Assembly (NCBI RefSeq): GCF_021390645.1
Contig: NZ_JAJEJT010000003.1
Span: forward strand, 1,426,001-1,490,000
Length of the DNA: 64,000 nt
Reading direction: 5' to 3'
From: Paraburkholderia flagellata
Lineage (GTDB): Bacteria > Pseudomonadota > Gammaproteobacteria > Burkholderiales > Burkholderiaceae
Below, one piece after another: positions 61,030 through 62,616 of the stretch. The notes beneath the pieces were generated by a model that saw only the letters and a program-made list of their open reading frames with translations, had not been told where the DNA came from and made no database searches. Made by a program: the position numbers and the translations under genes. Position 1 is the first letter of the stretch, and each line of letters starts with the position of its first letter.

Positions 61030-61077
61030 TGGCGCATTGCCACCTTTTGACCCCATCGCGTTGGCTTCGAGCCAACG
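61030..61077. promoter_or_regulatory. paired palindromes, candidate enhancer-binding sites
   Basis: A perfect dyad CGTTGGCT-TCG-AGCCAACG (61059-61077) and a partial one TGGC-GCATT-GCCA (61030-61042) share TTGGC half-sites, centred 32 bases apart (three helical turns), 75-120 bases before the sigma-54 promoter. Placement fits upstream activator sites. Confidence 0.5.
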
Positions 61078-61151
61078 ATTCCGGCTTCGTTTGCCCGTGG
61101 ATTCTCCACCTCGACGGGCCGTTACGCGCTGCCGCGAGGCGCGGACATCAC

Positions 61152-61167
61152 TGGCACGGTGGTTGCA
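61152..61167 (+). promoter_or_regulatory. sigma-54 (-24/-12) promoter of the graspetide cluster
   Basis: TGGCACG-GTGG-TTGCA matches the RpoN consensus TGGCACG-N4-TTGCW at every position. Transcription should start about 12 bases on, leaving a leader of roughly 50 bases before the precursor ATG at 61228. Confidence 0.82.
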
Positions 61168-61227: not shown

Positions 61228-61518
61228 ATGTCTAACATCAAAATTGAAACTCAGGAGCCCGTACCGTTTTTCTCACATTTTCTGGAAGGGCAGTTTTCCA
61301 GAGACCTCTCGGCGGCTGAGATGCAGGCCATACGCGGCGGCGCGGTCGTGACGATGGCGGCGCCGTCCGACCAGGAAGGCGTGCCGGTCGGCGAATTGCC
61401 CGACCTGCTGGGCATGTTGCGGCACATGGGGTGGCCTATGGGACCGATGCCCGGCATTCCGTCCTCGCCAGTGACGACCATGGCGTATCCCTCGGACGGC
61501 GAAAATGCTCCTCTTTAG
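61228..61518 (+). CDS. graspetide (marinostatin/microviridin-like) precursor, two cores
   Basis: 96-residue precursor of an omega-ester peptide. Leader 1-38: PFFSHFLE (13-20) is the maturase-binding motif of microviridin-type leaders (PFFARFLE), and LSAAEMQAIRGG (27-38) a double-glycine cleavage site. Two cores follow: T42-M-A-A-P-S47-D48-Q-E50 and T84-M-A-Y-P-S89-D90-G-E92, with the 1-7 and 6-9 Thr-Asp/Ser-Glu spacing of marinostatin and microviridin ester rings. The lysine of microviridins is absent. A Pro/Met-rich spacer (51-82) separates them. Possible serine-protease inhibitor with Met at P1. Class is well supported; bioactivity inferred. Confidence 0.85.
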   Translation: MSNIKIETQEPVPFFSHFLEGQFSRDLSAAEMQAIRGGAVVTMAAPSDQEGVPVGELPDLLGMLRHMGWPMGPMPGIPSSPVTTMAYPSDGENAPL

Positions 61519-61562
61519 TATTCCTGTGCATCGTCAGGCGGCGACGCCTGGACCGGAGTCGA

Positions 61563-61593
61563 GCGCGCGGCGAGGGGTTATCGCGCCGCGCGC
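61563..61593 (+). other. hairpin between precursor and maturase genes
   Basis: 10-base-pair stem GCGCGCGGCG / CGCCGCGCGC with an 11-base loop, preceded by a smaller stem CAGGCG-GCGA-CGCCTG (61535-61550). No T run; probably stabilises precursor mRNA and lowers read-through to the enzyme gene, common in RiPP operons. Confidence 0.55.
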
Positions 61594-61614
61594 CTTCAGT
61601 CAAGGAGCTCAACC

Positions 61615-62616
61615 ATGTCCGAGCGGCACCCACGGCCCGTGGTACTGATCATCACCCACAGCAACGACAACGAGAGTATTCCTCTCGTCATCAATGCTAT
61701 CGCCGCACAAGGCGGCGTGCCTTACCGGTTCGATACCGACCGCTTTCCGACCGACATTCGGCATTGCGGCCAGTACAGCGGCGAAGAAGAACGGCAAGTT
61801 ATTGCGTGTGAGGAATATGAGTTGGACCTGGGCACGGTATCTGCCGTGTGGTATCGGCGGATCGCCATCGGGCGGTGCATTCCTGAAACGATGGACTTGC
61901 AGCTCAGGCGGGCGGCGATCGAGCAATCGCGCGCCACGCTGCACGGCATGATCGCCAGCCTCGATGCGTTTCATCTCGATCCGGTGCACCGTCTGCGCCG
62001 CGCGGAAAACAAGCAGCTTCAGCTCAAGATTGCGAGAGAAGTCGGGCTCACGATGCCACGCACGTTGATCACCAATGCGCCAGAAGCCGTGCGCGGGTTC
62101 GCACGCGAATGCAGGCAGGGGATGATCATGAAGACGCTGTCATCGTTTGCCATTTACGAGCAGGGCGACCAGAAAGTGGTCTTTACCAACACGCTTCATG
62201 ACAAAGACCTCGAGCGTCTCGATGATCTTCGTTATTGCCCGGCCATCTTCCAGGAGCAAGTGCCCAAGGCGCTGGAACTGAGGGCAACGATTGTGGGAAA
62301 GCGGGTGTTCACGGCCTCGATCGATTCCCAACGGTCCGAAAAATCGAGCGTCGACTGGCGTCGCGATGGCATTGGACTGCTCGAAGCGTGGGAACCGTAC
62401 CCGTTGCCGCTCGAAGTCGAGAATGGACTGCTGAAACTGATGCATGCGCTGGGCCTCAACTACGGCGCAGCAGATTTCATCCTCACCCCCGACGGCCGTC
62501 ACTGCTTTCTGGAGGTCAACCCGGTCGGCGAGTTCTTCTGGCTGGAAAAGCACCCGGGATTACCGCTCTCGGGTGCGATTGCCGACCTGCTCGTTTCGAG
62601 CAAGGGCGCTGCTTGA
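61615..62616 (+). CDS. MvdD-type ATP-grasp graspetide ligase
   Basis: 333-residue ATP-grasp ligase of the MvdD/MvdC-like RiPP maturase family, which activates core Asp/Glu side chains as acyl phosphates and joins them to Thr/Ser. N-terminal pre-ATP-grasp domain (1-115) with DTDRFP (40-45), central ATP-binding lobe with IMKTLSS, and C-terminal metal motif CFLEVNPVGE with Glu300 and Asn302. AGGAG precedes the ATG. Only this one ligase is present, matching a core without lysine. No exporter or acetyltransferase follows in the window. Confidence 0.88.
   Translation: MSERHPRPVVLIITHSNDNESIPLVINAIAAQGGVPYRFDTDRFPTDIRHCGQYSGEEERQVIACEEYELDLGTVSAVWYRRIAIGRCIPETMDLQLRRAAIEQSRATLHGMIASLDAFHLDPVHRLRRAENKQLQLKIAREVGLTMPRTLITNAPEAVRGFARECRQGMIMKTLSSFAIYEQGDQKVVFTNTLHDKDLERLDDLRYCPAIFQEQVPKALELRATIVGKRVFTASIDSQRSEKSSVDWRRDGIGLLEAWEPYPLPLEVENGLLKLMHALGLNYGAADFILTPDGRHCFLEVNPVGEFFWLEKHPGLPLSGAIADLLVSSKGAA

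Follow-up and report, generated by a model that had tools for sequence, protein, structure and literature searches.

RESULTS

A graspetide precursor with two Lys-free cores

We analyzed a window of 64,000 nt from the 9.0-Mb genome of Paraburkholderia flagellata (contig NZ_JAJEJT010000003.1, positions 1,426,001 to 1,490,000); the named relatives found at the locus are also Paraburkholderia. Two genes follow each other on the + strand, a graspetide precursor ORF (61228..61518, ATG start, 96 amino acids) and, after a gap of 96 nt, an ATP-grasp ligase gene (61615..62616). The precursor reads MSNIKIETQEPVPFFSHFLEGQFSRDLSAAEMQAIRGGAVV, then TMAAPSDQE, 33 residues, TMAYPSDGE, and NAPL, and thus consists of a leader and two cores. 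The leader (61228..61341, + strand) contains the stretch PVPFFSHFLEGQ with the PFFSHFLE motif and, further on, an AIRGG motif; the GG cleavage motif occupies residues 37-38. Core 1 (61351..61377, + strand; residues 42-50) has predicted esters between Thr42 and Asp48 and between Ser47 and Glu50, and core 2 (61477..61503, + strand; residues 84-92) between Thr84 and Asp90 and between Ser89 and Glu92. Thr1, Ser6, Asp7, and Glu9 are present in each core and Lys in neither, as the original prediction of two nine-residue cores after one leader had described. The second acid is Asp in marinostatin and Glu in the window cores. The spacer (61378..61476, + strand) comprises a P[DE]xxxx[LI]R stretch followed by a Pro-rich part.

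The precursor scored above the curated cut-offs of NF033738 (47.4 bits, cut-off 26) and PF12559 (39.6 bits, cut-off 21), and each model matched two stretches. Its PFFxxFL-type leader lies beside an MdnC/MvdD-type ligase, the arrangement that marks microviridin/marinostatin precursors. Canonical microviridins have Lys in a TxKYPSD core together with an MdnB/MvdC ligase, whereas the window operon has Lys-free cores and lacks this combination. The Lys-free marinostatin motif, TMxYPSDx[DE], is matched by core 2; in core 1 it is broken by Ala in place of Tyr, with the ring residues intact. The precursor also has the class II microviridin-type layout, in which one GG-containing leader serves more than one core.

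A homology search with the precursor gave 49 homologues at E <= 0.001. In the 50-row alignment, the leader residues P, F, F, L, and E, both G of the GG motif, and Thr, Pro, Ser, and Asp of core 2 are invariant, and Thr, Pro, Ser, Asp, Gln, and Glu of core 1 are at least 90% conserved. Across seven Paraburkholderia loci, pN/pS was lowest in the cores (core 1, 0.10; core 2, 0.00), intermediate in the leader (0.26), and highest in the spacer (0.66), the core values being rough because each core has nine codons. The cores are under far stronger purifying selection than the spacer in these loci. An AlphaFold2 model of the precursor (mean pLDDT 57, pTM 0.18) was too weak to be used for fold searches; it contains three short helices, at 13-16 and 28-34 in the leader and at 59-65 in the spacer (numbering without Met1), and its low confidence fits a mostly disordered precursor peptide.

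The predicted P1-P1′ residues are Met-Ala in both heads, in agreement with the earlier description of a marinostatin-like inhibitor with this site. According to Table 3 of PMC9623506, marinostatin itself has Met4 at P1, Arg at P1′, and Tyr at P2′, with a subtilisin Ki of 1.5 nM, and Tyr at P2′ is also listed there for OMTKY3, CI-2, and SSI. The window precursor resembles marinostatin, as far as the latter is described, in Met at P1, the lack of a lactam, rings that are lactones only (predicted for the window), and the leader, which is of the PFFARFL type in marinostatin. It differs in having two cores per precursor and Ala at P1′, marinostatin being described as a 12-residue product with Arg at P1′.

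A single MvdD-type ligase and its leader contacts

The 333-residue ligase is of the MvdD/MdnC type (TIGR04184, E 6.6e-140; PF21068). The model of the ester-forming MvdD, TIGR04184, gave 465.8 bits, just below its equivalog cut-off of 475, and the fit to the MvdC model, TIGR04185, was far poorer (285.8 bits, cut-off 425). The best solved relative was 5ig9 (358 bits, E 3.3e-106), which is MdnC as given in PMC7823629. When the own genome was searched with TIGR04185 for a second ATP-grasp ligase, solely the window ligase was matched, below cut-off. A lactam-forming second ligase was rejected on this result, which bears out the earlier claim of a single ATP-grasp ligase.

The ligase was placed in a midpoint-rooted tree, made by a quick method, of 130 rows, comprising the best 120 of 2377 matches and ten sequences from the loci; 33 residues are invariant across these rows. 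One clade of 57 rows (SH-aLRT 100) includes every Paraburkholderia row. Within this sample, which draws on the best 120 of 2377, the named rows of the clade belong to Paraburkholderia, Burkholderia, and Methylococcales, and the named rows outside it are cyanobacterial.

As reviewed in PMC7823629, Arg17 of MdnA contacts Glu191, Asp192, and Asn195 of MdnC. By the alignment with 5ig9, the window equivalents are His17 of the leader and Lys197, Asp198, and Arg201 of the ligase. We compared 20 precursor-ligase pairs, four taken from the loci and 16 paired by eye, inferentially, on the equal length of their contigs, with related rows among them. Ligase position 197 is Lys in 9 of 10 pairs with a His leader (Gln in one, Glu in none), whereas with an Arg leader it is Glu in 7 of 10 (Gln, Arg, and Lys in one each). 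The other hairpin positions, corresponding to MdnC Asp192 and Asn195, showed no clear covariation in these pairs, and position 201 no clear trend. At the level of sequence, the residue pairing supports the same docking mode as in MdnA/MdnC.

A plasmid search with the ligase returned 10 records at E <= 1e-40, one with 62% identity (Nostoc) and nine below 60%; the precursor query returned one Nostoc record. In a 3.2-Mb plasmid record of Burkholderia stagnalis, NZ_CP156686.1, an ATP-grasp relative with 36% identity to the window ligase lies at 634352-635293, where the plasmid table lists no gene.

A conserved sigma-54-type element upstream of the operon

Upstream of the precursor gene lies a sigma-54 type promoter element, CTGGCACG-N4-TTGC (61151..61167, + strand), which would drive the operon. 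TGGCACG-N4-TTGC matches the sigma-54 -24/-12 consensus. The element is present in all seven Paraburkholderia loci of the operon, with TGGCACG starting 76 nt before the ATG in the window and 85 nt before it in the six other loci. Its specified positions are invariant in 11 of 11 cases across the seven loci, compared with 56 of 152 other ungapped upstream columns and 14 of 22 in the RBS region from 61209. The exact pattern occurs once in the window, with 0.07 expected and at least one occurrence in 7 of 100 shuffles. Genome-wide it occurs 8 times and the reversed control 11 times; a promoter call by count alone was rejected on this comparison, and without genome-wide enrichment the case for the promoter rests on conservation and position. 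Of the features expected of a sigma-54 promoter, the upstream -24/-12 element was found at 7 of 7 loci, and the own genome encodes two RpoN (sigma-54) proteins. A literature search linking microviridin with sigma 54 found no paper. Further upstream, at 61059-61077, is an inverted repeat, cgttggct-tcg-agccaacg, which is identical in Paraburkholderia nodosa and partially retained in G002 and CNPSo 3274 and could be an activator site.

In the gap between the two genes, a GC-rich RNA stem-loop is predicted (61563..61593, + strand). A hairpin is predicted there in all seven loci with a sequence that differs between two groups of loci; its z-scores, -0.6 to -3.5, are suggestive only. It is possibly a partial terminator or a transcript stabilizer.

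A subfamily of two-core precursors with a long spacer

The search for homologous two-core precursors that the original prediction had proposed was carried out with the best 120 of 531 profile matches and the homology search, 121 precursors including that of the window. By sequence, 53 were set aside as cyanobacterial type (P0044-P0049, P0189, P0194, and P0196-P0240). Among the 68 left (from the best 120 of 531), both cores fit [TS]xxxPSDx[DE] in 53, hereafter the two-core precursors, and neither core contains Lys in 51 of these. The motif misses one or both cores in the other 15, where some cores are lost or altered and some precursors are perhaps frameshifted; two heads are thus not essential.

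In the 53 two-core precursors (from the best 120 of 531), the distance from leader to core 1 is 29-30 residues without exception, GG always lies at most 8 residues ahead of core 1, and the spacer is 30-47 residues long. The P[DE]xxxx[LI]R stretch recurs in the spacers at a variable distance from core 2. The spacer had been called Met/Pro-rich in the original prediction. Its Pro content holds for the two-core precursors from the best 120 of 531, window included (average 18% Pro, 3% Met), whereas Met-richness is found mainly in the window strain and close relatives. As in the window, P2′ is Ala at core 1 in 36 and Tyr at core 2 in 49 of the 53 (from the best 120 of 531). The two heads of the window precursor look differently tuned.

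Among the 53 precursors of cyanobacterial type (from the best 120 of 531), 34 have three to five cores with Lys in all, and in 12 the first core lacks Lys and the following ones contain it; the gaps between cores measure at most 18 residues in 119 of 123 cases. The Lys-free first core, e.g., T[ML]AYPSDQE, resembles core 1 of the window, which at sequence level suggests a common source. The window precursor falls into a subfamily whose named members are Pseudomonadota. It is set apart by two cores that mostly lack Lys, a spacer of 30-47 residues, a ligase clade of its own, and, at all seven Paraburkholderia loci, the sigma-54-type element.

Two other layouts were seen in the loci searched. Three-core precursors in a Calothrix MAG (L008, 8429-8743) and in Calothrix sp. 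NIES-3974 (L010, 9974-10288) are exceptions among these loci in that their fetched flanks gave no ATP-grasp match. The genome G603, from the same class, encodes two precursors, each with a single TMKAPSDDDE core, ahead of two ATP-grasp ligases (L034, 8530-13353), a layout that suggests lactam-bearing products.

Distribution and gene neighborhood

The precursor (E <= 0.001) and the ligase (E <= 1e-50) were found in the identical 7 of 144 genomes of the genus. The NF033738 model matched 4 of 398 family genomes, all Paraburkholderia, and 3 of 398 phylum genomes, counts that are lower bounds, as the three second-group genomes with the operon were not among the matches. The seven loci form two groups, the window, G002, CNPSo 3274, and P. 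nodosa on the one side and P. panacisoli, P. lacunae, and G120 on the other. Among ORFs of at least 80 residues in the fetched flanks, of which the left one of CNPSo 3274 covers 3 kb only, the precursor and the ligase are the only ones in place common to both groups; the one other cross-group match was a 28% ABC-domain match at unrelated positions.

No C39 peptidase and no sigma-54 activator domain were found in a scan of ten flanking proteins, and no exporter or protease in the fetched flanks was common to both groups of loci. A linked C39 transporter, often but not always present in class II systems, is thus missing here. Of the two C39 genes in the own genome, one is on the same contig at a distance of ~0.7 Mb and the second is on a different contig. 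Because 140 of 141 genus genomes contain C39 domains, a linked C39 exporter was rejected as a marker. Beyond the window, ~2.3 kb downstream of the ligase, the own genome carries an ABC-transporter ATPase gene on the other strand; it could be part of an exporter, and it has no counterpart at that place in the relatives. In two of three second-group loci (L007, 11657-13906; L032, 11418-13667), a penicillin-binding protein gene follows the operon on the other strand, as called by Pfam on L007, to which L032 is 98% identical.

DISCUSSION

To judge from the sequences compared here, the product of the two-gene operon is likely an ester-only serine-protease inhibitor with two cores, related to class II microviridins and to marinostatin. 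RpoN would start transcription ~50 nt before the precursor gene, and the PFFSHFLE stretch would dock on the ligase hairpin. The ligase would then close the Thr-Asp and afterwards the Ser-Glu lactone on each core, with loss of at most four waters in total. In the two-core precursors (from the best 120 of 531 matches), the distance from leader to core 1 is fixed and the spacer has 30-47 residues, which makes it probable that the ligase reaches core 2 while the spacer, as a flexible arm, is looped out. Cleavage after GG would fall to a C39-type peptidase or exporter whose gene lies elsewhere. The expected targets are serine proteases of the subtilisin, chymotrypsin, or elastase kind. Both heads would present Met at P1, and core 2, which has the usual Tyr at P2′, is expected to be the stronger one.

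Tandem cores and ester-only rings are each already known. AMdnA of Anabaena PCC 7120 is described as having three cores after one leader, on each of which AMdnC closes up to two lactones. The enzyme is distributive, makes the larger lactone first, and loosely prefers to proceed from the N to the C terminus; in the main product the three cores carry one, two, and two rings, and AMdnA was blocked by an N-terminal tag (PMC5934393). By analogy with this account, the window ligase would be expected to close at most two lactones per core, and core 1 may be monocyclic. The two systems share one leader, several cores, and an MdnC/MvdD-type ligase; AMdnA, compared here by its description, has three cores and a "quasi core," whereas the window has two Lys-free cores and a long spacer. 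Class II microviridins are defined in PMC7823629 by up to five tandem cores, which double-glycine sites may separate, and the same review describes a lack of MdnB as normal and as leading to marinostatin.

The arrangement of two cores and one ligase is also found outside Paraburkholderia. Dulcicalothrix desertica and Calothrix sp. PCC 7716 (L011 and L012) have one MvdD-type ligase gene directly after a two-core precursor gene, and their fetched flanks contained no second ATP-grasp. As in the window, the first core is Lys-free (TMAYPSDQEG), and the ligase is 59-61% identical; unlike the window, the second core contains Lys (TKKYPSDQED), the spacer is short, a C-terminal tail is present, and the ligase falls outside the window's clade in the 130-row tree (best 120 of 2377). 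Chryseoviridin (CdnA3/CdnC) is reportedly a multicore product whose omega-ester rings are made by one dual-function ligase, and the CdnC structure 7mgv aligned with the window ligase at 237 bits. It shares with the window several cores in one product and differs in its motif, TxxxxDxxxTxKxPSDxD[DE], its several precursor genes, and a second ligase, CdnB, as described in PMC8939145. Gra-4 of Burkholderia seminalis is likewise a Burkholderiaceae graspetide with two repeats and is described as losing four waters; its repeats are TxxKxxDD with lactams and lactones, and it belongs to a different graspetide group (PMC9576775). A second core had originally been thought new to graspetides, a view that does not hold given AMdnA (PMC5934393), class II microviridins, and Gra-4 (PMC9576775), as far as these sources describe them. 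The observation is real and its novelty was overstated; the chemistry and inhibition proposed with it are predictions, plausibly read from the sequence. Microviridin clusters in Paraburkholderia are listed by a 2026 survey (PMC13178297), and public Paraburkholderia records label such precursors "microviridin/marinostatin family." In literature on microviridins and graspetides in Burkholderia and Paraburkholderia and on double-headed graspetides, the combination was not found; Ahmed 2017, Lee 2020, Zhao 2021, and Ramesh 2021 may list the group.

Several alternatives bear on the fate of the precursor. One concerns the last step only: cutting between the cores would release two separate marinostatin-like peptides, which we regard as a substantial possibility, somewhat short of probable. 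Class II cores may have double-glycine sites between them (PMC7823629), and GG occurs somewhere in the spacer of 15 of the 53 two-core precursors (from the best 120 of 531). However, it is absent from the window spacer and from 38 of the 53 overall, window included, and where present it is not at a fixed place ahead of core 2. With no GG in the window spacer, the two predicted bicyclic heads are possibly kept as one two-headed peptide of 58 residues. Its linear form has a calculated monoisotopic mass of 5970.85, which four rings would lower by 72.04, to about 5.9 kDa. It is improbable that the product stays in the cell and inhibits an endogenous protease without export: no C39 gene lies near the operon in the own genome and neither exporter nor protease is common to both groups of loci, but GG is invariant in the 50-row alignment, C39 genes are near-universal in the genus (140 of 141 genomes), and the own genome has the ABC ATPase gene 2.3 kb downstream.

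The proposal that one core alone is modified or active, the other decaying or serving as leader, is quite improbable in our judgment. Core 1 has Ala rather than Tyr before PSD, some relatives (from the best 120 of 531) have a single intact core, either the first or the second, and core 1 of AMdnA is described with one ring in the main product (PMC5934393). Against this stand the pN/pS values of 0.10 and 0.00 for cores 1 and 2, with 0.66 for the spacer, and the fit of both cores to [TS]xxxPSDx[DE] in 53 of 68 precursors (from the best 120 of 531). The spacer might also act as another leader, inside the precursor, and bring the ligase to core 2, given the recurrent P[DE]xxxx[LI]R stretch and the short helix modeled there by AlphaFold2 at low confidence (pLDDT about 59). 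This is very improbable: a profile comparison of leader and spacer blocks from 42 sequences gave no match (probability 0.1%), a result on which the idea was rejected, and the distance of the stretch to core 2 varies, whereas that from leader to core 1 is fixed (from the best 120 of 531).

The ester-only, two-core product can be taken one step further, to a picture that we hold to be doubtful, in which a single uncut 58-residue two-headed inhibitor is made. A Pseudomonadota lineage related to the cyanobacterial multicore microviridins would have dropped the lactam chemistry, spaced two heads with different P2′ residues along a flexible Pro-rich arm, and acquired sigma-54 control. The result would be a bivalent graspetide made in response to one particular cue from the environment. 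The operon opens no new natural-product class. If confirmed, it would unite tandem-core microviridins and lactam-free marinostatin in one two-gene system, which should express easily and would test whether tandem heads stay one bivalent inhibitor. The conserved sigma-54-type element would offer a handle on the timing of peptide production.
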